Shown: one piece after another, positions 41,496 to 55,638 of the stretch
How the letters are laid out: each line of letters starts with the position of its first letter
Position numbering within the stretch: position 1 is the first letter of the stretch
NCBI RefSeq assembly: GCF_902859645.1
Contig: NZ_CADIJR010000045.1
Span: 1-55,871 of the forward strand
DNA length: 55,871 nucleotides
Direction: 5' to 3'
Origin: Achromobacter insuavis
GTDB lineage: Bacteria > Pseudomonadota > Gammaproteobacteria > Burkholderiales > Burkholderiaceae_B
Notes under the pieces: generated by a model
Told to the model about the DNA's origin: nothing
The model's database searches: none
The model's input: only the letters and a program-made list of their open reading frames with translations
Program-made: the position numbers and the translations under genes

Positions 41496-42707
41496 ATGAA
41501 CAAGCCCCTGCGGCCCGCGACGCGCCTGCTGCGCGCCGGGCGTCCCCATGCCGGCTGGGTCAACACCCCGGTCACGCGCGCCAGCACGTTTGTGTTCGAC
41601 AGCGTCGCGGCCTGGCGTGACACCCGCGCCCGCCGCGAACAGGAACGCCTGCCGTCGTACGGCGCGCGCGGCACCGACAGCACGCACGCGCTGGAAGACG
41701 CGCTGGTCGAGCTGGAGCAGGGCCATCGCGCGCAGCTGTATCCCACGGGGCAGGCCGCCATCGCCGTCGTGCTGCTGGCCTATCTGCGCGCCGGCGACCA
41801 CGTGCTGGTGACCGACGCGGTCTATGAACCGGTGCGCCGTTTCTGCGCCGAGCACCTGGCGCGGCTGGGCATCGAATTCACCTTCTATCCGCCGGACGGC
41901 GCCGGCCTGGCGCAGCTGCTGCGCCCCAACACGCGCATGATCTATGCCGAGTCGCCCGGCTCGCTGACCTACGAGATGCCGGACCTGCGGCAGCTGGCCG
42001 ACCTGGCGCGGCGCCACGATTGCTGGCTGGCTGTGGATAACACCTGGGCGTCGGGATTGCTGTGCCAGCCGCTGGCGCTGGGCGCGGATATCTCGATCCT
42101 CGCCGCCACCAAGTACCTGGGCGGCCACGCCGACGTGATGATGGGCGCGGTCGTGACCAATGCCCGCGCCTGGCGCGCGCTGGAACGCGCCAGCATCGAC
42201 TTCGGCCAGACCGTCGGCGCGGACGACGCCTACCTGGTGCTGCGCGGCATGCGTTCGCTGCCGCTGCGCATGGCGCAGCACGCTCGCAGCGCCCTGCGCG
42301 TGGCGCAGTGGCTGCAGGGCAGGGCGGAAGTGGCGCGCGTGTTGTGCCCGGCCTTGCCCGACGATCCCGCGCATGCGGTCTGGCGGCGTGAATGCTCGGG
42401 CGCCAATGGCCTGTTGACGCTGGAATTCGCCGCCGGCATCGCCGACGCCGACATGGAGCGCGCCATCGACGCGCTGCGCCTGTTCGGCATCGGCGCCTCC
42501 TGGGGCGGCTTCGAAAGCCTGGTGATTCCCGTCAATCTGGCCAAGGCGCGCGCCCTGCCCGTCACCGCGCACGGCGCCATGTTGCGCCTGCATATCGGCC
42601 TGGAGGATCCGGACGACCTGATCGCCGACCTCGAACAGGCATTCGACCAATTGCGGCCGAGCCTGAAGGCCCCGAACTCCCATTCTCCCGATTCCCTGCG
42701 GATTTAA
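41496..42707 (+). CDS. Cys/Met-metabolism PLP enzyme (cystathionine beta-lyase type)
   Basis: A fold-type I PLP enzyme of the MetB/MetC group, probably a beta-lyase or desulfhydrase releasing a thiol or sulfide. The 403-residue protein has YGARGTDSTHALEDALVELE, YPTGQAAIAVVLLAYL, the aspartate in LAVDNTWASG and Schiff-base K206 in ILAATKYLGGHADVMMG. It starts 5 bp after the cupin gene. MetC-like beta-lyase activity is likely; gamma-synthase activity is less so because the usual acyl-homoserine genes are absent. Confidence 0.85.
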   Translation: MNKPLRPATRLLRAGRPHAGWVNTPVTRASTFVFDSVAAWRDTRARREQERLPSYGARGTDSTHALEDALVELEQGHRAQLYPTGQAAIAVVLLAYLRAGDHVLVTDAVYEPVRRFCAEHLARLGIEFTFYPPDGAGLAQLLRPNTRMIYAESPGSLTYEMPDLRQLADLARRHDCWLAVDNTWASGLLCQPLALGADISILAATKYLGGHADVMMGAVVTNARAWRALERASIDFGQTVGADDAYLVLRGMRSLPLRMAQHARSALRVAQWLQGRAEVARVLCPALPDDPAHAVWRRECSGANGLLTLEFAAGIADADMERAIDALRLFGIGASWGGFESLVIPVNLAKARALPVTAHGAMLRLHIGLEDPDDLIADLEQAFDQLRPSLKAPNSHSPDSLRI

Positions 42708-42709
42708 CG

Positions 42710-44305
42710 ATGCATTCCCATTCCGACCTGAAACTGGCCGATATTGACTCGCACACCCTCAAGGGCTGGCTGCATGACGGCGGCGAGATTGCGCTGCTGG
42801 ACGTGCGCGAGCATGGCCAGTACGGTGAGTCCCATCTGTTCTACGCGGCCCCCGTGCCGTTCAGCCGGCTCGAGGCCGACATCGCGCGCCTGGCGCCGCG
42901 CCGCGACGTGCGCGTGGTGGTCTACGACGAAGGCGGCGATGACGACGTCGCCGCGCGCGCGGCGACGGCCCTGCGCGCCCTGGGCTACACGCGGGTCTAT
43001 TGCCTGGCCGGCGGCATCGCGCAATGGCAGCGCGATGGCTATGCCGCCTTCGCCGGCGTCAACGTGCCGAGCAAGACCTTCGGCGAACTGGCCGAAGAAG
43101 TTTTCCACACCCCGCGCATCAGCGCCGCCGAGCTGGCCGAGCGCCAGCGCCGCGGCGACGACCTGATCGTGCTGGATGGCCGGCCCTACACCGAATACCA
43201 GAAGATGAGCATTCCCGGCGGCATCTGCTGCCCGAATGGCGAGCTGGCGTTGCGCGCCCACACGCTGGCGCGCGACCCCAACACCACCATCGTGATCAAT
43301 TGCGCCGGCCGCACGCGCAGCATCATCGGCGCGCAGACGCTCATCAACCTGGGCGTGCCCAACCCCGTCTATGCGCTGGAGAACGGCACGCAGGGCTGGT
43401 ATCTGGCGGACTTCAAGCTGGACCACGGCGCCAGCCGCCGCTACGACGACGCCGTTGCCGCCGCGGACCTGCCCGACCTGGCGCAGCGCTCGGCCGGCCT
43501 GGCCCGCCGTCATGGCGTGCCCGAGGTGAACGCCGCGCAGGTGCGTGAATGGCTGAACGACGCCAGCCGCAGCACCTTCCTGTGCGACGTGCGCAGCGCC
43601 GAGGAATTCGCGCGCGGCTCGCTGCCTGGCGCCCAGCACACGCCCGGCGGCCAGCTGGTCCAGGCCACCGACCAATACCTGGCGGTGCGCGGCGCGCGCA
43701 TCGTGGTGTTCGATGGCGAAGGCGTGCGCGCGCCGGTGGTGGCCAGCTGGCTGCGCCAGATGGGCTGGGACGCCAGCGTGCTGCGTGAAGGCGTGGCCGC
43801 CGACCTGCAAGCGCCCGTCGCCCCGGCGGCGGAGCCGGCGTTGACGGTGCTCGACGACGCGGCGCTGGCCGCCGCGCTGGCGCAAGGCGCGCAGCTGGTC
43901 GACATCCGTTCCAGCATGCGCTATCGCGCGCAGCACATCGACGGCGCGCGCTGGTCGGTGCGGCCGCGTTTCGCCGACCTGGCGCTGGATCCCGCGCGTC
44001 CGCTGGTGCTGCTGGCCGACGAACGCGCGCTGGCCGCGTGGGCCGCGGCGGATCTGCGCGCGCTCGGCGTGCGTGACGTCAAGGCCAACCTGGGCACGCC
44101 CGCGGGCTGGGCGGCGGCGGGCCTGGCGCTGGCGGCCACGCCGGCCGAACCGGCCGATGCCGATTGCATCGACTACCTGTTCTTCGTGCATGACCGCCAC
44201 GACGGCAACAAGGCCGCGGCGCGTCAGTACCTTGCCTGGGAAACCAACCTGGTCAAGCAGATCGACGCGCGCGAGCGCGCCGCGTACCGCTTCCCGGCCG
44301 GGTGA
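42710..44305 (+). CDS. Four-domain rhodanese-like protein
   Basis: A 531-residue protein made of four tandem rhodanese modules: about residues 10-115, 135-235, 270-365 and 375-465. Only module 2 has a catalytic cysteine, C198 in VINCAGRTRS. At the matching positions the others have Asp or none (D73 in VVYDEGG, D335 in VVFDGEG, and LLADERA in module 4). A final segment has CIDYLFFVHDRHDGN. One active and three inactive modules suggest sulfur relay plus scaffolding or binding. It starts 3 bp after the PLP enzyme gene. Confidence 0.88.
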   Translation: MHSHSDLKLADIDSHTLKGWLHDGGEIALLDVREHGQYGESHLFYAAPVPFSRLEADIARLAPRRDVRVVVYDEGGDDDVAARAATALRALGYTRVYCLAGGIAQWQRDGYAAFAGVNVPSKTFGELAEEVFHTPRISAAELAERQRRGDDLIVLDGRPYTEYQKMSIPGGICCPNGELALRAHTLARDPNTTIVINCAGRTRSIIGAQTLINLGVPNPVYALENGTQGWYLADFKLDHGASRRYDDAVAAADLPDLAQRSAGLARRHGVPEVNAAQVREWLNDASRSTFLCDVRSAEEFARGSLPGAQHTPGGQLVQATDQYLAVRGARIVVFDGEGVRAPVVASWLRQMGWDASVLREGVAADLQAPVAPAAEPALTVLDDAALAAALAQGAQLVDIRSSMRYRAQHIDGARWSVRPRFADLALDPARPLVLLADERALAAWAAADLRALGVRDVKANLGTPAGWAAAGLALAATPAEPADADCIDYLFFVHDRHDGNKAAARQYLAWETNLVKQIDARERAAYRFPAG

Positions 44306-44471
44306 CCGCCGGGGCTGAATGACCCTCGCGGCCGCCACGGCGGCCGCGCCCAATGCTTCATCCGATCAGCACGCCCCGGCGCTTTCGCCGGCGGGGCGCG
44401 GACGGTTCATGGCGAACCGAAATGCAATGGACGGCCGAGCATCCGGCCGCCAACCACAAGGGGAAATACCG

Positions 44472-45473
44472 ATGAACAAGCTCAACCTGCAGCACGCCTG
44501 CAAGACCGCCGCGGCCCTGGCCTGCCTGGCGTGGGGGATGAATGCCCATGCCCAGGCGCCGGCGCCATTGGCCGACTATCCCAAGCAGGCGATCACCGTG
44601 GTGTCGCCGTTCCCGCCCGGGGGCGGCAATGATGGCGTGGCGCGTCTCATCGCGCAGGAACTGGGCGCCCTCATCGGCCAGAGCGTGGTGGTGGAAAACC
44701 GCTCCGGCGCGGGCGGCAACGTCGGCACTTCGCAGGTCTCGCGCGCCAAGCCCGATGGCTACACGCTGGTGATGTCGCAGACCAGCGTCATGGCGGTCAA
44801 TCCGCGCCTGTACAAGAACGTCGGCTTCGATCCGCTCAAGGATTTCGTGCCGATCTCGCAGATCACCTCGGCGCCGCTGGTGCTGGTGGCGCGCAGCGAA
44901 AGCGCCTACAAATCGCTGGGCGACTATCTGGATGCCGCGCGCAAGCAGCCGGGCGTCATCACCTACGCCACGCCCGGCAACGGCACCATGAGCCACCTGA
45001 TGGGGGCGCTGCTGTCGCAGAAGGCCAACGTGAAGCTGGTGCACGTGCCGTACCGCGGCGCCGCGCCCGCCATTACCGACCTGATGGGCGGCACGGTCGA
45101 CATGCTGATCACCTCGCCGGCCTCGGCCGAGCCGATGGTGGCGGCGGGCAAGCTGCGCATCCTGGCGCTCAGCCATGAAAACGGCATCGGCATCTTCAAG
45201 GGCGCGCCCACGCTCGGGCAGTCCGGCATGGACGGCATCACGGCCGACGACTGGTATGGCCTGTTCGCGCCGGCAGGCACGCCGCCCGAACGCGTCGCCT
45301 ATCTGGCGCAGGCCGTGGCGCAGGCGATGAAATCGCCCAACGTCATCGCCAAGATCCAGGCCGGCGGCAGCCAGCCCGTGGGCAGCGCGCCCGACGCCTT
45401 CGGCAAGCGCCTGCAGCAGGACACCGCCTACTGGGCCGACATGGTGAAGGTGGCCGGCGTCTCGGTGGATTGA
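44472..45473 (+). CDS. Bug/TctC-family periplasmic binding protein without its own transporter
   Basis: A 333-residue secreted receptor with signal peptide (AALACLAWGMNAHA) starting at ATG 44472 behind AAGGGGAAA. It carries Bug motifs ITVVSPFPPGGGNDGVARLIA and VVENRSGAGGNVGTSQVSRAKPDGYTL. No TctA/TctB genes adjoin it. Such orphan Bug proteins are very numerous in Alcaligenaceae and may share membrane subunits or act as sensors. The 166-bp gap after the rhodanese gene shows no terminator, so it may belong to the LysR-linked cluster. Confidence 0.88.
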   Translation: MNKLNLQHACKTAAALACLAWGMNAHAQAPAPLADYPKQAITVVSPFPPGGGNDGVARLIAQELGALIGQSVVVENRSGAGGNVGTSQVSRAKPDGYTLVMSQTSVMAVNPRLYKNVGFDPLKDFVPISQITSAPLVLVARSESAYKSLGDYLDAARKQPGVITYATPGNGTMSHLMGALLSQKANVKLVHVPYRGAAPAITDLMGGTVDMLITSPASAEPMVAAGKLRILALSHENGIGIFKGAPTLGQSGMDGITADDWYGLFAPAGTPPERVAYLAQAVAQAMKSPNVIAKIQAGGSQPVGSAPDAFGKRLQQDTAYWADMVKVAGVSVD

Positions 45474-45480
45474 GGCCCGG

Positions 45481-46242
45481 CTACACCGCCAGCAGCTTGC
45501 CCACGGCGGCCTTCAGGGCCGCGTAGGCGGGCTGCTTCTGCGCATTGGTGTTGGTGATCAGGTGATCGATGCGGTTCACTTCGCAGTACGACACCCGGCT
45601 GCACAGGCCGATCTTGCTGAAGTCGGCCAGCAGGATGCGCTGCTTGGCGTTGGCCGCCATGGCGCGCGCCACCTCGGCTTCGCGCAGGTCGTAGCTGGTG
45701 GCGCCGCATTCGGCGTCCACGCCCACCGGCGACAGCAGCGCCACGTCGGCGCGGTAGCGGTGGATCTCGGCGATGGTGATGTCGCCGGCGGTGGCGCACA
45801 CCGGCCCGCCGACCGAGCCGCCCAGCATGAGCAGTTCGTTGGCGCCGCTGCCCGCGGCGCCAACCTTGAGCGCCACGTCGAACGAATTGGTGATGATGGT
45901 CAGGCCGCTCAGCTTGGCCAGCTCGTCGGCCAGCATGCTGGTGGTGCTGCCGGCGTCCAGGAATAGCGTCTGGCCGCTCGTCACCAGGCCGGCGGCGGCG
46001 CGGGCGATGGCGCGCTTGTACTTGACGCGGGTGTGCACGCGCTCGGCGATCGGCGGTTCGCTGTGCACCGGCACCGCGCCGCCATGCACGCGGCGCAGCT
46101 CGCCCATCGCTTCCAGCTCCAGCAGATCGCGCCGCACGGTCTCCCGCGATACCCCCAGTTCGCCGACGATACGGTCGGTCGATACCTGCTGCAGGGAAGA
46201 CAGCAGGGCGCGGATTCTCTGATACCGCTCTTCTTGCCACAT
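45481..46242 (-). CDS. DeoR-family transcriptional regulator
   Basis: A 253-residue repressor-type protein. The N-terminal HTH is STDRIVGELGVSRETVRRDLLELE, followed by RRVHGGAV typical of DeoR proteins, and a DeoR_C sensor domain with LFLDAGSTTSMLADEL and LLADFSKIG. DeoR sensors usually bind phosphorylated small molecules, which fits the neighbouring phosphorylated-substrate genes. It is the last gene of the minus-strand transporter operon, 17 bp after the permease stop. Confidence 0.9.
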   Translation of the reverse strand: MWQEERYQRIRALLSSLQQVSTDRIVGELGVSRETVRRDLLELEAMGELRRVHGGAVPVHSEPPIAERVHTRVKYKRAIARAAAGLVTSGQTLFLDAGSTTSMLADELAKLSGLTIITNSFDVALKVGAAGSGANELLMLGGSVGGPVCATAGDITIAEIHRYRADVALLSPVGVDAECGATSYDLREAEVARAMAANAKQRILLADFSKIGLCSRVSYCEVNRIDHLITNTNAQKQPAYAALKAAVGKLLAV

Positions 46243-46259
46243 ATCGGATGCTTCCTAAT

Positions 46260-47942
46260 CTATTTGCGGCGGCGCGCCGGCAGCGCGATCAACGCGCGCA
46301 TCGCCAGCAGCGAACCGCCCACGACCAGCATGATAAGCGTCGAATAGGCCGCCGCCTGCGAGACGAACCCCGCTTCGTCCAGCCGCAGTACGGAAACCGG
46401 CGCGACGCTGACCGACGGCGTGACCAGGAAGATCACCGCCGACAGCGTCACCATGGAACGCATGAAGAGGAAAAAGAACACGCCCAGCACCGTCGCGGCG
46501 ATCTGCGGCAGCACCGCGTCGCGCAGCACCTGCAAGGTGCCGCCGCCCAGGCAGCTCACCGCTTCCTCCAGCGCCTGCGGCACCGCGCGCATGCCGGTCA
46601 TCATCGTCAGAAAGCCCTGCGTGTGATAGTGGTAGAAGTTGCACAGCGCGATCAGCGCGGCGCTGCCATACAGCGCGTAGAGCGGGTTGGCGGGCGAGTT
46701 GAAGGCGAAGATATACGACAGCCCCAGCACCAGCCCCGGCACGCCCACCGGCAGCACCGACACCAGGTAGACCAGCTTGGCCCAGGCGCGCGGAATGCGG
46801 CAGACGCCGAAGGTCAGGAAGAACAGCAGCAGCACGCCGCCGGCCGCGGCCGCCAGCGACAGGTACAGCGACGTCCACAGCGGCGCATAGCCGCCGCTGA
46901 CGGTGATGTCGTAATGCTTCAGGGTCCACTCCATCCGGTACGGCCACAGCCGCATGAAGCTGGCGAACACGACGGTGCCCACCGTCACCACGATGGTGCT
47001 GGCGCACAGCAGCACGCCCGCCGTGAACGCCAGGTCGCGGCCGCGCGCCGGCTGCGGCGTGACGCGCAGTCCGCTGGGCGAGGCGGCGCCGAACTGGCGT
47101 TGCGACGCCACCCGTTCGATCTGCACCGAGATCAACGAGGGCAGCAGCAGCAGGATGCCGACCACCGAGCCCATGCCGAAATTCATCTGGCCCGACACTT
47201 GGCTGTAGATCTCGGTGGCCAGCACGCGGTAGTTGCCGCCGATCACCGCGGCGTTGCCGAAGTCGGTGATGGTGATGACGAACACCACGAACGCCGCGCT
47301 CAGCAGGCCGAACTTGCAGTTGGGCAGGGTGATGTCGAAGAACTGCCGCAGGCTCGACGCGCCCATCACCTCGGCCGCGTCGTAATAGCGCGCATCGGTG
47401 TTGCGCAGCGCCGCCTGCAGGATCAGCACCGCCTGGGGCAGGGCATAGAACACGTTCGAGATCAGCAGGCCCCAGAAGCCGTAGATATCGAATTCCCACC
47501 CCGTCCAGCGATGCACCAGGCCGTTGCGGCCGAGCAGGAAGATCAGTCCCAACCCCTGCACCAGCGACGGCGCCAGCAGCGGCAGCACCAGCGCCAGCTT
47601 CACCAGCGCCTTGCCGCGCATGCGGCTGCGGTCCAGCCCGAAGGCGATGGCAAAGCCCAGCAACAGGCTGACGGCGGTGGTGGCCGCGCTCATCGTCAGG
47701 CTGTTGGCGGTGGCGGTCAGGATGCCGCGGGTGGCGAATACCTCGGCGTAGTTGCCCAGGCCGATGCCGCCGTCCTTTTCCACCAGGCTGCGCCAGCCGA
47801 CCGTGGCCAGCGGATACAGGAAGAACAGCGCCAGTCCCGCCATCGGAATGCCGACGCAGGTCCATAGCAGCAGGCGATCCAGGGAGGCCGGCGAGCGGTT
47901 GGCGCGAGACGACGTGGCGGCGCCGATACGAACCGTGTTCAT
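46260..47942 (-). CDS. ABC transporter permease, fused two-module type (2-aminoethylphosphonate-like)
   Basis: A 560-residue inner-membrane permease with two permease halves in one chain, as in iron(III) and putative 2-aminoethylphosphonate transporters. Each half has an EAA-like loop: YDAAEVMGASSLRQFFDITLP and EEAVSCLGGGTLQVLRDAVLP. About 12 membrane segments are seen. It lies between the ATPase and regulator genes. The phosphonate-type assignment comes mainly from the accompanying binding protein. Confidence 0.85.
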   Translation of the reverse strand: MNTVRIGAATSSRANRSPASLDRLLLWTCVGIPMAGLALFFLYPLATVGWRSLVEKDGGIGLGNYAEVFATRGILTATANSLTMSAATTAVSLLLGFAIAFGLDRSRMRGKALVKLALVLPLLAPSLVQGLGLIFLLGRNGLVHRWTGWEFDIYGFWGLLISNVFYALPQAVLILQAALRNTDARYYDAAEVMGASSLRQFFDITLPNCKFGLLSAAFVVFVITITDFGNAAVIGGNYRVLATEIYSQVSGQMNFGMGSVVGILLLLPSLISVQIERVASQRQFGAASPSGLRVTPQPARGRDLAFTAGVLLCASTIVVTVGTVVFASFMRLWPYRMEWTLKHYDITVSGGYAPLWTSLYLSLAAAAGGVLLLFFLTFGVCRIPRAWAKLVYLVSVLPVGVPGLVLGLSYIFAFNSPANPLYALYGSAALIALCNFYHYHTQGFLTMMTGMRAVPQALEEAVSCLGGGTLQVLRDAVLPQIAATVLGVFFFLFMRSMVTLSAVIFLVTPSVSVAPVSVLRLDEAGFVSQAAAYSTLIMLVVGGSLLAMRALIALPARRRK

Positions 47943-47979
47943 GCCTTGGCCTCCGCGCGTGCCGGCGTGGCGGACGCAG

Positions 47980-48987
47980 TCATACGCGGACCCAGGCGCA
48001 CTGTTCCGGCGCCATGTCCAGGCGCACCGGCGCGCCCTGCGACAAGCCCGCCGCGCCCTGCTGCTCGACCAGCAGCTCGCGGCCCTGCCACGCCACCCGC
48101 ACGCGTGTCAGGTTGCCCATGAAGGTCATCTCGCGCACCCGCCCCGGCCCGCGCGCATCGGCGGCGATGCGCAGGCTTTCCGGCCGCAGGCAGGCCTCGA
48201 AACGCTCGCTGGCGCCATCGGGCCGGGTCGCCAGCAGTGCCGGCATGGCCTCGCGCACCCAGTCGGTCGGCAGCAGGTTGCTCAGGCCGACGAAGTTGGC
48301 GACGAAGCGCGTGCGCGGCCGCAGATACAAGTCGGACGGCGAACCCACCTGCTCGACGCGGCCGTCGTTCATGCACACGATCTTGTCGGCCAGCGTCAGC
48401 GCCTCCTCCTGGTCGTGCGTCACCATGATGGTCGGGATCTGCAGGCGGCGCTGCACCTCGTGGATCTCGGCGCGCATGTCGGTGCGCACGCGCGCGTCCA
48501 GCGCCGACAGCGGTTCGTCCAGCAGGATCAGCGCCGGGTCCACCGCCAGCGCCCGCGCCAATGCCACGCGCTGTTGCTGGCCGCCGGACAGCTGGTGGGG
48601 ATAACGCTGTGCATAATCCGGCAGCTTGATCAGCGCCAGCAATTCACGCACCCGCGCCTCGATGCGCTCGCGGCTCTCGCCGCGGATGCGCAGGCCGTAG
48701 CCGACGTTTTCGGCCACGGTCATGTTGGGAAACAGCGAATACGACTGGAACACGATGCCGAAGCCGCGCTTGCGCGCAGGCAGCGCCGACAGGTCGCGTC
48801 CGCCCAGCGTGATGGTGCCGCTGTCGAATGGCAGCAGGCCGGCGACGATGCGCAGCAGGGTGGTCTTGCCGCAGCCGCTGGGTCCCAGCAGGCAGACGAA
48901 TTCGTGCTCGCCGACGGACAGGTCGATGCCTTCCAGCGCCACCGCGCCGTCGAAGGTCTTGCGGATCCCGCGCAATTCCAGGTACAT
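47980..48987 (-). CDS. ABC transporter ATPase (2-aminoethylphosphonate-like)
   Basis: The energising subunit of the adjoining permease. The 335-residue protein has Walker A GPSGCGKTTLLR, Q-loop VFQSYSLFPNMTV, signature LSGGQQQRVALARAL, Walker B LILLDEPLSALDA and switch VTHDQEEALTLAD, plus a C-terminal TOBE domain. ATG 48987 is preferred over GTG 48993 because GGAG lies 5 nt before the ATG. Gene order binding protein-ATPase-permease matches PhnS/PhnT-type operons. Confidence 0.88.
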   Translation of the reverse strand: MYLELRGIRKTFDGAVALEGIDLSVGEHEFVCLLGPSGCGKTTLLRIVAGLLPFDSGTITLGGRDLSALPARKRGFGIVFQSYSLFPNMTVAENVGYGLRIRGESRERIEARVRELLALIKLPDYAQRYPHQLSGGQQQRVALARALAVDPALILLDEPLSALDARVRTDMRAEIHEVQRRLQIPTIMVTHDQEEALTLADKIVCMNDGRVEQVGSPSDLYLRPRTRFVANFVGLSNLLPTDWVREAMPALLATRPDGASERFEACLRPESLRIAADARGPGRVREMTFMGNLTRVRVAWQGRELLVEQQGAAGLSQGAPVRLDMAPEQCAWVRV

Positions 48988-49038
48988 GGCCACTCCAGGC
49001 GGTGGCGTGGCGGCCGGCGGCGCCGGCCGCGCGCGCCG

Positions 49039-50049
49039 TCAGCGTTTGATGGTGTCCTGCCAGGTCTTGATGGTGGCGTCGCGTTCCGCCGCCGATTTCT
49101 GGAAGTCCACGGGGTACAGCACGGCGGTCAGGTCCTTGGGCAGCCCGGCGGCCTCGGCCGCCTTGTTGGGGGCGGCGCCTGGAATCGTCACCAGTTCCTT
49201 GTACTTGCTGTACAGCCCGCCGGCCTGCGCCGACAGCGTCCAGTCGAGGAAGCGCTTGGCGTCCGCGGGATTCTTGGCGGTCTTCATCAGGCCCGAGGCT
49301 TCCAGCTCGTAGCCCACCCATTTCGACGGGATCACCATCTTCACCGGAAAGCCTTCCTCGATCGATTGCATCGCCGGGAACGCGAACGACACGCCAATCG
49401 CATACTCGCCGGCGCGCGCCATCTTGCAGGGGCGGGAACCCGACGGCGTGTACTGCGCCACGTTCTTGTCCAGGTCCTTGAGCAGCGCCCAGCCCTTCTC
49501 GGCGCCCAGGCCCTGCAACAGCGCGACGATCTGCAGATAACCGGTGCCGGATGCGGCCGGGCTGGGGATGACGATCTCGCCCTTGTAGACCGGCTTGGTC
49601 AGGTCTTCCCACGAGGTCGGCATCGGCAGGTTCTTGGACTTGAGCCGGTCGGTGTTGACACAGAACGCGGCCACGTAGCCGGTGGCGGCGAACCACTTGT
49701 TGTCGGCGGCCTTGTATTGCGCCGGCAGTGCGTCGATGCCCTTGGCCGCATACGGCTCCAGCAGCTTCTGCAGGCGCGGGTCCAGCATGTTGCTGACGGC
49801 GAAGCCCCAGATCACGTCCTGCTGCGGATTGCCGGCCTCGGCGATCAGGCGCGCGCCCAGGTCGCCGGTGGACAGGCGCAGCACGTTCACCTTCACGTCC
49901 GGCAGGGCGGCGTTGGCGGCCTTCAGGTAGGCCGCGATCTCGTCTTCCTCCAGCGCCGTGTAGACGGTGATGGCGCCGGCGTGGACAGCCTGGGCAAAAC
50001 CTAGGGAAATTACTGCAACCACAAGACCAAGCTTCTTCTTACATTGCAT
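49039..50049 (-). CDS. Periplasmic binding protein, putative 2-aminoethylphosphonate type
   Basis: The receptor for the ABC importer. The 336-residue precursor from ATG 50049 (GGAG upstream) has signal peptide KKLGLVVAVISLGFAQAVHA. The mature start AITVYTALEEDEIAAYLKA, followed by LRLSTGDLGARLIAEAGNPQ and DVIWGFA, resembles the putative 2-aminoethylphosphonate-binding group. Iron(III)-binding FbpA-type proteins are more distant relatives. No phosphonatase, PhnW or C-P lyase gene is adjacent, so a related phosphorylated amine such as phosphoethanolamine is equally possible. Confidence 0.82.
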   Translation of the reverse strand: MQCKKKLGLVVAVISLGFAQAVHAGAITVYTALEEDEIAAYLKAANAALPDVKVNVLRLSTGDLGARLIAEAGNPQQDVIWGFAVSNMLDPRLQKLLEPYAAKGIDALPAQYKAADNKWFAATGYVAAFCVNTDRLKSKNLPMPTSWEDLTKPVYKGEIVIPSPAASGTGYLQIVALLQGLGAEKGWALLKDLDKNVAQYTPSGSRPCKMARAGEYAIGVSFAFPAMQSIEEGFPVKMVIPSKWVGYELEASGLMKTAKNPADAKRFLDWTLSAQAGGLYSKYKELVTIPGAAPNKAAEAAGLPKDLTAVLYPVDFQKSAAERDATIKTWQDTIKR

Positions 50050-50120
50050 GATGGGACTCCGGAAAGGAATACACGGCAACGGCGATGAGCTGCTTTTCTG
50101 CGGACGGCGGGGCGGTAAGG

Positions 50121-50155
50121 TTGCGCGAGGAAACGTTGCGTTTCCCGGGTTGCGT
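50121..50155. promoter_or_regulatory. Repeats in the divergent control region of the phosphoamine-type locus
   Basis: GGAAAC (50129-50134) and GTTTCC (50140-50145) form an inverted repeat around GTTGC. TTGCG occurs three times at 50121, 50136 and 50150, 14-15 bp apart. The gap 50050-50252 separates the binding-protein gene from the phosphatase gene, so this is a plausible DeoR operator. An AT-rich patch at 50156-50178 may contain a promoter. Confidence 0.4.
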
Positions 50156-50252
50156 TTTTAGGTATATTTGCAAATTTGTGGCAACGTGTCTAGACTGGAA
50201 AAACCCGAATCGCATGGGTATTTCCGCGCCGCGCCACGCCTCGGAGCTCGTC

Positions 50253-51059
50253 ATGCAAACTTCGCCGCCGCTTAATGCGCAGCAATTGGCCGCGTTTTCC
50301 TCGTTCGCCCAGACGCTGGCGGACCAGGTCCGGCCCTTGTCGCGCCAGTGGTTCCGCCACCCCCTGACGGTGGAGACCAAAGCGGATGAAAGTCCCGTCA
50401 CCCGTGCCGACCGCGAGGTCGAGGAAGCGCTGCGCGCGGCCATCGCCCGCGAGTATCCGGATCACGGCATCTTCGGCGAGGAATACGGCGCCAGCCATGC
50501 GGAGGCCGAGTGGGTGTGGTCGCTCGATCCCATCGACGGCACCCGCGCCTTCATCTCCGGCAATCCCCTGTGGGGCACGCTGCTGGGCCTGCTGCACCGC
50601 GGCCGCCCGGTGCTGGGCCTGATCGACATTCCCATGATGGCCGAACGCTGGCTGGGCGTTGTCGGTTCGCCCGCGCGCCTGAATGGCGAACCCTGCCGCG
50701 CGCGCCAGTGCACCGGACTGGACCAGGCGATTCTCTACGCCACCTCGCCCGACATCTTCCAAGGCGCCGACCTGGACGCGTTCGAGGCGCTGGCGCGCTC
50801 GGTGCGCATGCGCCGCTATGGCGGCGATTGCTACAGCTATGGCCTGCTGGCCAGCGGCCATGTCGACCTGGTGGTCGAGGCCGGCCTGCAGCCGTATGAC
50901 TATCTGGCGCTGATGCCCGTGATCGAAGGCGCGGGCGGCGTTATTACCGATTGGTCGGGGCAGCCGTTAGGCCTCGCGTCGCAGGGCCGCGTGATCGCGG
51001 CCGCCACGCCGCAGCTGCATCGCGAGGCGATGCGGATGCTGGGGGCGGCCGTGACCTGA
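50253..51059 (+). CDS. Inositol-monophosphatase-family phosphatase (HisN-like)
   Basis: A Mg2+-dependent phosphomonoesterase; relatives cleave inositol phosphate, PAP or histidinol phosphate. ATG 50253 follows GGAG by 5 nt; the frame is open to 50085. The 268-residue protein has KADESPVTRADREVE, GEEYG (75-79), metal motif LDPIDGTRAF (D92, D95) and D216 in LQPYDYLALMPVIEGAGG. Similarity to histidinol-phosphatase-type members suggests an amino-alcohol phosphate as substrate. It opens the plus-strand operon divergent from the phosphonate-type importer. Confidence 0.85.
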   Translation: MQTSPPLNAQQLAAFSSFAQTLADQVRPLSRQWFRHPLTVETKADESPVTRADREVEEALRAAIAREYPDHGIFGEEYGASHAEAEWVWSLDPIDGTRAFISGNPLWGTLLGLLHRGRPVLGLIDIPMMAERWLGVVGSPARLNGEPCRARQCTGLDQAILYATSPDIFQGADLDAFEALARSVRMRRYGGDCYSYGLLASGHVDLVVEAGLQPYDYLALMPVIEGAGGVITDWSGQPLGLASQGRVIAAATPQLHREAMRMLGAAVT

Positions 51060-51123
51060 AACACCGCGCCCCGCGACCCCGCACGTCAACGCAACGCTTC
51101 AGCCACGACAAGGTGAACGAGCC

Positions 51124-52509
<1,386 letters not shown>

Positions 52510-52552
52510 ACACCGCCGCTTCACTCATCCACCACGCAAGCACAGGGTCGCC

Positions 52553-53944
52553 ATGACGCAGGAACTCATCACCATCAGTCCCATCGACGGCCGCGAAGTC
52601 GTGCGCCGCCCCTACGCCAGCGAGGCGCAGGTCGCGCAGGCGCTGGCCGACGCGCAGGTCGCGCAGGGCGCGTGGCACGCGCTCGGCATCGAGCAGCGTG
52701 GCCGCATCCTGTCCGAGGCCGTGACGCGCTTTGTCGCGGGCAAGGCCGAGATCGCGCGCGCCATCACGATCCAGATGGGCCGTCCCCTGCGCTACACGCC
52801 GGGTGAAGTCGATGGCTTCGAAGCGCGCGCGCGCCACATGATCGGCATCGCCGCCGAAGCGCTGGCGCCGGTCCACGTGCCGGAGATCGCGGGCTTCACG
52901 CGCTTCATCAGCCGCGAGCCGATCGGCGTGGCGCTCACCATCGCGCCGTGGAACTATCCGCTGCTGACGGCGGTGAACAGCATCGTGCCGGCGCTGATGG
53001 CCGGCAACACCGTCATCCTCAAGCACTCCGACCAGACGCCGCTGTGCGCCGAGCTCATCGGCCGCGCCTTCAGCGAGGCCGGCGTGCCGCATGGCGTGTT
53101 CCAGTACCTGCATGCGAACCATGACATCGCGCAGCGGCTGATCCGCGCGCCTGAAATCGGCTACGTGTCCTTCACCGGGTCGGTGCGCGGCGGCCAGAGC
53201 GTGGAGCAGGCCGCGGCCGGCCGCTTCATCGGCGTGGGCCTGGAGCTGGGCGGCAACGATCCCGCCTATGTGCGCGCCGACGCCAACCTGGCGCACGTGG
53301 TCGATACGCTGGTCGACGGCGCCTTCTTCAACTCCGGCCAATCGTGCTGCGGCATCCAGCGCATCTACGTGGCGCGCGCACGCTACCAGGACTTCATCGA
53401 TCGCGCCGCGGCGCTGACCCGCGAGTACGTGCTGGGCGATCCGTTGCGGCAAGACACCACGCTGGGTCCGGTGGTGCGCACGCGCGCCGCCGACGAGGTG
53501 CGCGAGGTCATCGCCGAGGCGGAATCGCGCGGCGCCCGCAACCTGGTCGATGCCGCGCGTTTCGACGCCGCGCGCGCCGGCACGCCGTACGTGGCGCCCG
53601 CGCTGCTGACGCAGGTCGACCACCGCATGCGCGTGATGAATGATGAATGCTTCGGCCCCGTGGTTGGCGTGATGCCCGTCGACAGCGATGAAGAGGCCGT
53701 GGCCCTGATGAACGACAGCCCCTATGGCCTGACCGCCGCCGTCTTCACGCAGGACGAAGACGCCGCCCTGCATCTCGGCCGCCAGTTGCGCACCGGCACC
53801 GTCTTCATGAACCGCTGCGACTACCTCGATCCCGCGCTGGCGTGGACCGGCGTCAAGCAAACCGGCCGCGGCGTTTCGTTGTCGCGCGTCGGCTACGAAC
53901 AGCTCACCCAAGCCAAATCCTTCCATCTGCGCCGCACCGCCTGA
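52553..53944 (+). CDS. NAD(P)+-dependent aldehyde dehydrogenase
   Basis: It oxidises an aldehyde to the acid. The 463-residue protein has oxyanion Asn N134 in IAPWNYPLL, the cofactor motif FTGSVRGG, general base E231 in LELGGNDP and nucleophile C265 in NSGQSCCGIQR. It starts 43 bp after the ligase gene. By context the substrate could be a gamma-glutamylated amino-aldehyde, analogous to PuuC, but a free aldehyde is also possible. Confidence 0.9.
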   Translation: MTQELITISPIDGREVVRRPYASEAQVAQALADAQVAQGAWHALGIEQRGRILSEAVTRFVAGKAEIARAITIQMGRPLRYTPGEVDGFEARARHMIGIAAEALAPVHVPEIAGFTRFISREPIGVALTIAPWNYPLLTAVNSIVPALMAGNTVILKHSDQTPLCAELIGRAFSEAGVPHGVFQYLHANHDIAQRLIRAPEIGYVSFTGSVRGGQSVEQAAAGRFIGVGLELGGNDPAYVRADANLAHVVDTLVDGAFFNSGQSCCGIQRIYVARARYQDFIDRAAALTREYVLGDPLRQDTTLGPVVRTRAADEVREVIAEAESRGARNLVDAARFDAARAGTPYVAPALLTQVDHRMRVMNDECFGPVVGVMPVDSDEEAVALMNDSPYGLTAAVFTQDEDAALHLGRQLRTGTVFMNRCDYLDPALAWTGVKQTGRGVSLSRVGYEQLTQAKSFHLRRTA

Positions 53945-53964
53945 GCGCGCGACCAGGAGCCGAC

Positions 53965-55128
53965 ATGACTGTCCCCAGCGTCAACTGGAACTATCCCACC
54001 GCCATCAAGGCGGGCCCCGGCCGCATCAAGGAATTGCCCGACTGGTGCCGCGAACTCGGCATGGCGCGGCCCTTGCTGGTCACCGATCCCGGCCTGGCCG
54101 CGCTGCCCATGATCGCCGACGCGGTGCGCGGCTGCCGCCAGGCCGGGCTCGAATGCGGCCTGTTCCACGAAGTGAAGGGCAACCCCACCGGTCGGAACGT
54201 GGACGATGGCGTGGCGCGTTATCGCGAAGGCCGCCACGATGGCGTCATCGCGTTCGGCGGCGGCTCGGCGCTGGACGCGGCCAAGGCCATCGCGCTGATG
54301 GCCGGGCAGAAGCGTCCGCTGTGGGATTTCGAGGACGTGGGCGACAACTACCTGCGCGTGAACGTCGCCGGCATGGCGCCGGTGGTGGCGGTGCCGACCA
54401 CCGCGGGCACGGGCTCGGAAGTGGGACGCGCCTCCGTCATCACCGACGAGGCGGCGCAGGTCAAGCGCATCATCTTCCACGCGCGCATGCTGCCCGCCAT
54501 CGTGATTCTCGACCCCGAACTCACCGTCGGCCTGCCGCCGCGCATCACCGCGGCCACGGGCATGGATGCGCTGTCGCACAACCTCGAAGCCTACTGTTCG
54601 CCGTTCTTCCATCCGATGGCCGCCGGCATCGCGCTCGAAGGCATGCGCATCGTCAAGGAATACCTGCCGCAGGCGGTGGCCGATGGCGCGGACCTGCAGG
54701 CTCGCCAGCAGATGCTGGTGGCCTCCAGCATGGGCGCCACCGCGTTCCAGCGCGGGCTGGGCGCGATGCACGCGCTGGCGCATCCGCTGGGGGCGCTGTA
54801 CGACGCGCACCACGGCATGCTCAACGCCATCCTCATGCCCTATGTGCTCAAGGCCAACCAGCACGCGGTCGCGCCGCGGCTGCAGGCGCTGGCGCGCTAC
54901 CTGGCCTTGCCTGACGACAGCCCCGGCGCCGTGCTCGACTGGGTGCTGGCGCTGCGCGAGACCGTCGGCATCCCGCACACCCTGGCCGACATCGGTATCG
55001 ATGACGCCGAGGCCGAGCGGGTAGGGCGCATGGCGAGCGAGGATCCGTCGGGCGGCACCAACCCCGTCGCCTACACGCCGGACCAGTACGCTGAACTTTT
55101 TCGTGCAGCCGTTCGCGGAATCTTGTAA
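53965..55128 (+). CDS. Iron-containing (group III) alcohol dehydrogenase
   Basis: An NAD-linked alcohol dehydrogenase using a divalent metal. The 387-residue protein has the NAD-binding GGGSALDAAKAIALM, the PTTAGTGSEVGRASVI segment, TGMDALSHNLEAY, and the metal-binding run GAMHALAHPLGALYDAHHG. ATG 53965 follows AGGAG. It comes 20 bp after the aldehyde dehydrogenase gene, so the two can oxidise an alcohol to a carboxylate in sequence. No terminator is seen before the tRNA promoter. Confidence 0.92.
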   Translation: MTVPSVNWNYPTAIKAGPGRIKELPDWCRELGMARPLLVTDPGLAALPMIADAVRGCRQAGLECGLFHEVKGNPTGRNVDDGVARYREGRHDGVIAFGGGSALDAAKAIALMAGQKRPLWDFEDVGDNYLRVNVAGMAPVVAVPTTAGTGSEVGRASVITDEAAQVKRIIFHARMLPAIVILDPELTVGLPPRITAATGMDALSHNLEAYCSPFFHPMAAGIALEGMRIVKEYLPQAVADGADLQARQQMLVASSMGATAFQRGLGAMHALAHPLGALYDAHHGMLNAILMPYVLKANQHAVAPRLQALARYLALPDDSPGAVLDWVLALRETVGIPHTLADIGIDDAEAERVGRMASEDPSGGTNPVAYTPDQYAELFRAAVRGIL

Positions 55129-55241: not shown

Positions 55242-55328
55242 GGAGGGGTGCCCGAGTGGTTAAAGGGGGCAGACTGTAAATCTGTTGGCCTTGCGCCTAC
55301 GTTGGTTCGAATCCAACCTCCTCCACCA
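55242..55328 (+). tRNA. tRNA-Tyr (GTA)
   Basis: An 87-nt class II tRNA with 7-bp acceptor stem (GGAGGGG/CTCCTCC), anticodon GTA in CAGACTGTAAATCTG, a long variable arm, T-stem GTTGG/CCAAC and encoded CCA. It is the first gene of the Tyr-Gly-Thr-tuf transcript. Confidence 0.97.
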
Positions 55329-55342
55329 GAGACCCAAACCTG

Positions 55343-55370
55343 AATCCAGGCGATGTTTGCCTGGATTTTA
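55343..55370 (+). terminator. Terminator-like hairpin between tRNA-Tyr and tRNA-Gly
   Basis: AATCCAGGC and GCCTGGATT form a 9-bp stem with a 7-nt loop, followed by TTTAAAA. It could reduce read-through or act as a processing site. The rest of the 149-bp spacer has a second GC-rich hairpin (GCCTTCGCAACGAAGGC, about 55403) and no obvious promoter. Confidence 0.45.
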
Positions 55371-55477
55371 AAATGTAGGCCTAGGGAACTGGGCGGCCTT
55401 CGCAACGAAGGCGGTAAGTTCTCCGGGCCTTGATTTTGAAAGTCTGGGAAAAGTAGTGAGGTGGTGAAAGGACAGCC

Positions 55478-55551
55478 GCGGGTGTAGCTCAATGGTAGAG
55501 CAGAAGCCTTCCAAGCTTACGACGAGGGTTCGATTCCCTTCACCCGCTCCA
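55478..55551 (+). tRNA. tRNA-Gly (TCC)
   Basis: A 74-nt tRNA starting GCGGGTG and ending CACCCGCTCCA, anticodon TCC in GCCTTCCAAGC, with TTCGATT T-loop and encoded CCA. Confidence 0.96.
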
Positions 55552-55563
55552 AGCAGTACACAT

Positions 55564-55638
<75 letters not shown>

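Follow-up and report, generated by a model that had tools for sequence, protein, structure and literature searches.

A gene cluster of Achromobacter insuavis predicted to import phosphoethanolamine intact and to degrade it through gamma-glutamylation

We analysed a 55,871-nucleotide stretch of DNA from Achromobacter insuavis (the window; contig C45 of a 6.8-Mb genome), in which eight genes in two divergent units very probably serve the utilisation of phosphoethanolamine. Gene content, the clade structure of the transporter, residue conservation and recurring gene associations in relatives point to this function, and the ligand, substrates, effector and end product are predicted from them. In the proposed pathway, a periplasmic protein would bind phosphoethanolamine, a phospholipid headgroup, and an ATP-binding cassette (ABC) transporter would bring it in intact; a cytoplasmic HisN-type phosphatase would strip the phosphate to give ethanolamine, and a glutamine synthetase (GS)-like ligase would cap the amine with glutamate. 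An iron-type alcohol dehydrogenase (Fe-ADH) would then convert the alcohol to the aldehyde and an aldehyde dehydrogenase (ALDH) the aldehyde to gamma-glutamylglycine, from which a hydrolase encoded elsewhere, with an M81 peptidase as the candidate, would release glycine and glutamate. A DeoR-family regulator would keep both units repressed in the absence of a phosphorylated effector, which is probably phosphoethanolamine. An earlier note on this DNA had proposed the same succession of import, dephosphorylation, gamma-glutamylation and oxidation, which emerged as the best-supported reading; elsewhere the transporter adjoins EutBC or a probable phospho-lyase.

The eight genes were all recovered by an open reading frame (ORF) check and profile searches at the positions, on the strands and with the families that the earlier note had given them, and the divergent gap that it had placed at 50050-50252 (203 bases) was also confirmed. 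The minus unit comprises DeoR, a fused permease, an ATPase and the binding protein, and the plus unit the HisN-type phosphatase, the GS-like ligase, ALDH and Fe-ADH. The most likely starts of hisN (ATG at 50253, giving 268 aa) and of the Fe-ADH gene (ATG at 53965, counted by hand) are small corrections of the reading frames. The features are as follows:
45481..46242, minus strand: repressor of the DeoR family, proposed to sense a phosphorylated effector (both PF00455 and PF08220 pass their cut-offs)
46260..47942, minus strand: fused ABC permease (TIGR03262, PhnU2, 480 bits; cut-off 593 not reached)
47980..48990, minus strand: ABC ATPase (TIGR03265, PhnT2, 411 bits; cut-off 458 not reached)
49039..50049, minus strand: periplasmic binding protein of a new clade, proposed phosphoethanolamine receptor (TIGR03261, PhnS2, 347 bits; cut-off 393 not reached)
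50159..50205, no strand: conserved block of 47 bases between the two divergent units, a candidate for the operator and for the promoter of hisN (TTGCAA and TAGACT with 17 bases between them)
50253..51059, plus strand: phosphatase of the HisN type with no evident signal peptide, proposed to act on phosphoethanolamine (TIGR02067 293 bits; cut-off 275 passed)
51124..52509, plus strand: GS-like ligase, proposed ethanolamine gamma-glutamylase (PF00120 326 bits)
52553..53944, plus strand: aldehyde dehydrogenase, proposed to form gamma-glutamylglycine (PF00171 424 bits)
53965..55128, plus strand: iron-type alcohol dehydrogenase, proposed gamma-glutamylethanolamide dehydrogenase (PF00465 171 bits, PF25137 145 bits)
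L042:3909-5363 (a related locus): M81 (MlrC-type) peptidase, linked copy, directly after the Fe-ADH of an ethanolamine operon
Because both the eight-gene set and the GS-ALDH-ADH core were found again in relatives, the cluster is not a chance arrangement.

We rated as the strongest evidence the genes to which the transporter is linked in relatives. The 21 new-clade loci outside Achromobacter came from 13 genomes and 8 plasmid records (opened of 16 at at least 51% identity); L049 and L097, apparently one genome with an identical binding protein, are counted once here and twice in the 106-locus counts below, and L209, which overlaps L051, was left out of the counts. A HisN gene adjoined the transporter in 13 of the 21 (G033, G080, G110, G102, G122, G013, G135, G605, G629 and plasmids of Azospirillum, Roseinatronobacter, Sagittula and Shinella). 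Near HisN and the transporter, the GS/ALDH/Fe-ADH core was present in five loci (G033, G080, G110, G102 and G122) and EutBC in three (G135, G605 and Azospirillum brasilense p3); in G013 the GS core lay about 550 kb from the transporter and HisN. The EutB and EutC of G135 scored 726 and 322 bits, both over cut-off, their counterparts in G605 were 81 and 64% identical to them, and the A. brasilense p3 record itself annotates eutC, EutB and hisN. EutB was found in 3 of the 16 transporter genomes searched (G135, G605 and G977) and in none of the nine with GS.

Four of the 21 loci carried a phospho-lyase homolog at the transporter (G008, G977, Klebsiella michiganensis and Enterobacter hormaechei). 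The best solved match of the homologs in L176 and L214 was the human ethanolamine-phosphate phospho-lyase 6tor (348 and 345 bits), followed by 5g4i (326 and 319 bits), with the next solved match at 179 and 185 bits; the homolog in L220 was assigned solely by its 74% identity to that of L176. The phosphonate enzyme PbfA, which belongs to the same subgroup, was rejected as an identity for these genes (190-200 bits against a cut-off of 525 in L176, L211 and L214), and the genes in L176, L211, L214 and L220 probably encode ethanolamine-phosphate phospho-lyases. HisN, EutBC, the GS-like ligase and the phospho-lyase are unrelated to one another, and, judged by their predicted activities, (phospho)ethanolamine is the compound that they have in common. 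In G008, a phospholipase C gene (TIGR03396 929 bits, cut-off 580) stands between the binding-protein and ATPase genes; the same transporter operon (L176:10398-14914) also encodes a protein of 689 aa that contains a lectin-like domain. In K. michiganensis and E. hormaechei, the phospho-lyase homolog, transporter and DeoR lie on conjugative plasmids (L214:7258-13441 and L220:7258-13441). A haloacid dehalogenase (HAD)-type hydrolase adjoined the transporter in two further loci, after the permease, in Sulfitobacter (L217:12796-13488) and Martelella (L218:12935-13663), and is perhaps another phosphatase replacing HisN.

The binding protein was matched (E <= 1e-50) in 51 of 200 family genomes, in 11 of them at 63-100% identity and in the others at no more than 46%. 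A tree of 50 rows (45 different sequences) separated this new clade from canonical AepX at 100/100; one locus of an Achromobacter genome, L189, has no row in it, its binding protein (L189:9073-10100) matching in two pieces and being possibly broken. All three transporter parts scored below the cut-offs of the 2-aminoethylphosphonate models, which, with the separate clade, places the system outside AepXVW. The genome of the window holds both transporter types: the canonical copy, on another contig (C30), is accompanied by its ATPase and permease, by PhnX (TIGR01422 333 bits, cut-off 220) and by a flavin adenine dinucleotide (FAD)-dependent oxidase, and this region (L175:506-14440) also lies near a sodium/phosphate cotransporter homolog. 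The earlier note's statement that phosphonate-cleaving genes are absent holds for the locus, although the genome does have PhnX. All five canonical loci read (L175 and L179-L182) contained PhnX and the FAD oxidase, whereas a scan of 26 new-clade loci found neither, with PhnW, PhnA, PhnY and PbfA not among the queries.

Two of the three best solved matches of the binding protein are phosphomonoester binders, AfuA (4r72, same sequence as 4r73) and P5PA (6wce), and the third, 8x1a, was deposited as an iron protein; after these three the score dropped from 138 to 53 bits, and many of the lower-scoring matches are iron proteins. The phosphate contacts are Ser37 and Thr150 in AfuA, as given in the available text of PMC4546632, and Thr37, Ser147, Gly148, Thr149 and Ser183 in P5PA, as given in that of PMC8427247. 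When mapped by hand on the alignment with the solved matches, the phosphate-contact positions of the window protein are T61, S167, G168, T169 and S203, each conserved in at least 95% of both the new-clade and the canonical sets. In contrast, each set is fixed for a different residue at 27 positions, including A223 and F224, which are D and Y in canonical AepX, and the sugar-contacting His205 and Asp206 of AfuA correspond to F224 and P225 (again mapped by hand). The retention of the phosphate contacts together with differences from AepX at positions predicted to face the rest of the ligand supports phosphoethanolamine as the ligand. The N-terminus of the binding protein resembles a signal peptide by eye whereas that of the phosphatase does not, so that dephosphorylation would be cytoplasmic.

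The best solved matches of the phosphatase were 4n81 and 5eq7. HisN exceeded the TIGR02067 cut-off in 31 of 41 genomes of the genus and the GS gene was present in 39; in 30 of the 31, GS followed HisN immediately downstream, the gap between match ends being about 75-83 bases (counted by hand from coordinates). The exception, G204, has HisN beside DeoR and the GS core elsewhere, with a EutR-like gene and an ethanolamine permease. An above-cut-off HisN was absent from ten of the 41 genomes, eight of which are listed as 99-100% complete, whereas a HisN paralog scoring 174-182 bits was found in 40, the exception being G226, which is 57% complete. Phosphoethanolamine is histidinol phosphate minus its side chain, so the shift in substrate would be small.

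The GS-like ligase did not reach the cut-off of the type I, the type III or the gamma-glutamylputrescine model, and an ordinary glutamine synthetase was rejected (219 bits against the 429 needed). Its best named hits, from two Achromobacter species, are 93 and 91% identical to it, and relatives (E <= 1e-60) were found in 27 of the 200 family genomes, the window genome included. GS, ALDH and Fe-ADH matches occurred together in 24 of 26 family loci; L055 had no ADH match, and the contig of L041 ends past ALDH. When these 26 loci were combined with the best 80 loci of a wider search (Halomonas, Pseudomonas, Vibrio, Nitrosomonas, Microvirga, Sneathiella and others), 11 of the resulting 106 loci had a match to EtoX-type tripartite ATP-independent periplasmic (TRAP) binding proteins, 20 to ethanolamine-permease homologs and 6 to EutR-like regulators, with the ethanolamine-transporter labels checked on three single representatives by profile or solved structure. 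The TRAP protein of L047 matched 4uab, which we take to be the ethanolamine protein of C. salexigens, at 481 bits, the next solved protein scoring 82, and the permeases of L186 and L170 exceeded the TIGR00908 cut-off (653 and 574 against 382 bits). Csal_0678 is named as a homolog in the available text of PMC10132767. In a Sneathiella locus (L127:9090-17953), HisN, GS, DeoR, ALDH and Fe-ADH stand by a sodium/phosphate cotransporter and a glycerophosphodiester phosphodiesterase.

As the earlier note had stated, the locus lacks the final gamma-glutamyl hydrolase. An M81 (MlrC-type) gene follows Fe-ADH directly in 9 of the 106 loci, from 8 genomes (L042, L045, L047-L052 and L097; family checked for L042), a placement hinting that gamma-glutamylglycine hydrolysis may be its natural role. 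Class-I amidotransferase matches were present in 24 of the 106 loci and a PuuD-like match in 4. The genome of the window contains five M81 genes outside the cluster, of which the nearest, at C5:72485, shares 48% identity with the linked type, and its class-I amidotransferase matches were weak (PF07722 24-43 bits; 27-39% identity over parts of the L106 protein).

In most of the 21 loci outside Achromobacter, DeoR accompanies the transporter. Within the divergent gap, the 47-base block was near-invariant in 12 Achromobacter gaps and its flanks were variable; visual inspection showed similar blocks preceding hisN or GS in L042, L048, L178, L049, L041, L045 and L039, of which the last three lack ABC genes. 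No further copy of the 28-base core of the block was found in the window's genome with up to three mismatches allowed, and a consensus promoter scan reported none in 50000-50300, the candidate hisN promoter included. We infer that DeoR would bind this block and that phosphoethanolamine would be its effector.

The earlier note would have been refuted by a lack of co-occurrence of the two divergent units in related genomes, and this was not observed: the transporter clade was found in 11, the GS relative in 27 and both in 9 of the 200 family genomes (Fisher p = 2e-7, inflated by shared ancestry). Several observations nevertheless weigh against the proposed pathway. Counted over genera, which is fairer, the co-occurrence was weak (6, 12 and 4 of 43; p = 0.04). 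Among 19 Achromobacter genomes, 11 had transporter and HisN, 4 had HisN without the transporter and 4 had neither, the transporter share being biased upward because the set was the window genome, nine from the GS search and nine picked for having HisN; this pattern fits stepwise loss and also a looser link. HisN stands beside GS without the transporter in, for example, L033, L036, L037, L041, L045 and L046, and GS stands without HisN in L032, L034, L035 and L038. No partner enzyme was recognised in two of the 21 transporter loci (G507 and G537), and two more have the HAD hydrolase only; the regulator of L050, whose best model is EutR, reached 215 bits against a cut-off of 319; HisN passes a histidinol-phosphatase model; and the window cluster contains no gamma-glutamylglycine hydrolase.

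Four other explanations of the cluster were weighed. The transporter might carry 2-aminoethylphosphonate, as its name implies, beside an ethanolamine operon that adjoins it by accident. The best NCBIfam models of all three parts are indeed 2-aminoethylphosphonate models, and the Stappia AepX binds this compound at 23 nM according to the available text of PMC8316502; however, the shortfall of all three parts against those models, the absence of PhnX and the FAD oxidase from the scanned new-clade loci as opposed to the canonical ones, and the canonical system already present in the same genome make this improbable, and family knowledge does not lead one to expect carbon-phosphorus cleavage from a HisN-type phosphatase. 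About equally improbable is that the same steps process a different phosphorylated amino alcohol, for example serinol phosphate or 1-amino-2-propanol phosphate: HisN-type enzymes as a family use amino-alcohol phosphates and GS-like ligases may take other amines, but the EutBC, EtoX-type proteins, ethanolamine permeases and ethanolamine-phosphate phospho-lyase homologs of the relatives all indicate ethanolamine.

A plain histidinol-phosphatase of histidine biosynthesis, unconnected with its neighbours, would agree with the TIGR02067 score of HisN and with its being the sole gene over that cut-off in its genome. Such a role is still less likely, given that the genus distribution is patchy for HisN and nearly complete for the paralog, that HisN almost always directly precedes GS and that it accompanies the transporter at EutBC loci. 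Import of ferric iron, with an unrelated plus unit, is the least credible of the four; the protein family (SBP_bac_6) includes iron binders and many of the lower-scoring solved matches are iron proteins, but two of the three best matches bind phosphomonoesters and the next match falls far below them. Phosphoethanolamine utilisation remains the reading that we prefer.

A broader reading, towards which we lean slightly, is that a widespread and overlooked branch of the so-called 2-aminoethylphosphonate transporters imports phosphoethanolamine. Together with DeoR, this transporter would form a movable module placed on at least three non-homologous routes (HisN with gamma-glutamylation, HisN with EutBC, and a direct phospho-lyase) in Beta- and Alphaproteobacteria and on Enterobacteriaceae plasmids; import of the intact headgroup would then be common, and the M81 (MlrC-type) peptidases found in some such operons would be natural gamma-glutamylglycine hydrolases. 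The cluster also cautions against extending the 2-aminoethylphosphonate label to all PhnS2-like proteins, which would affect counts of phosphonate use.

The cluster is flanked at 42392-45473 of the window by a multi-rhodanese protein and a TctC-type receptor, with the same neighbours in several Achromobacter loci. On its other side, tRNA-Tyr, tRNA-Gly and tRNA-Thr lie at 55242-55638, near the contig end, where relatives have genes for elongation factor Tu and ribosomal proteins.

The headgroup of phosphatidylethanolamine, a major bacterial lipid, can readily supply carbon, nitrogen and phosphorus. A 2023 Phaeobacter study describes extracellular breakdown followed by ethanolamine uptake and states that transport of the intact headgroup 'remains to be determined' (PMC10132767, available text); the present cluster supplies a candidate importer, phosphatase and regulator for this question. 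In our literature search on phosphoethanolamine transport and breakdown in bacteria and on AepX, with most subscription journals outside its scope, we found no recognised assignment of a phosphoethanolamine ABC transporter or of a HisN-type phosphoethanolamine phosphatase. The earlier note had called the pathway possibly undescribed, which is too strong: ethanolamine gamma-glutamylation and the later steps have been demonstrated or proposed in the literature (PMC6529630 and PMC10132767, as far as their available text goes), and it is for the phosphorylated entry route that we found no report.

Compared by description, the Phaeobacter sp. MED193 operon (after Chromohalobacter salexigens) likewise combines an ethanolamine gamma-glutamylase with aldehyde and alcohol dehydrogenases; its available account (PMC10132767) assigns to the EtoX operon a gamma-glutamylglycine amidohydrolase besides a ligase and two dehydrogenases. 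In that organism, however, phosphate is removed extracellularly, with a contribution from PhoX, free ethanolamine enters through a TRAP transporter and EtoX does not bind phosphorylethanolamine, according to the same text, whereas we propose uptake by an ABC transporter and dephosphorylation inside the cell. The GlnA4 of Streptomyces coelicolor, again compared by description, is likewise a GS-like enzyme that forms gamma-glutamylethanolamide, with dehydrogenase genes nearby, but its route starts from free ethanolamine, its cluster has a short-chain dehydrogenase, and the available text of PMC6529630 mentions no such phosphatase or transporter. AepXVW belongs to the same transporter family and, by alignment, has the same phosphate-contact positions, but the window protein falls in a separate clade; the available text of PMC8316502 speaks of AepX subclades and of Betaproteobacteria but of no other ligand, and a new-clade member may already be in its AepX tree. 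AfuABC and P5PA, for hexose phosphates and pyridoxal phosphate, use the same type of binding protein for intact import of phosphomonoesters, with other ligands (PMC4546632 and PMC8427247, available text). The HisN histidinol-phosphatases (TIGR02067) are of the same family as the window HisN, which differs in its ethanolamine-gene neighbours and its patchy presence in the genus. What is known is the gamma-glutamylation back half of the pathway; what is new is the transporter clade, the proposed re-purposing of HisN and their modular linkage.

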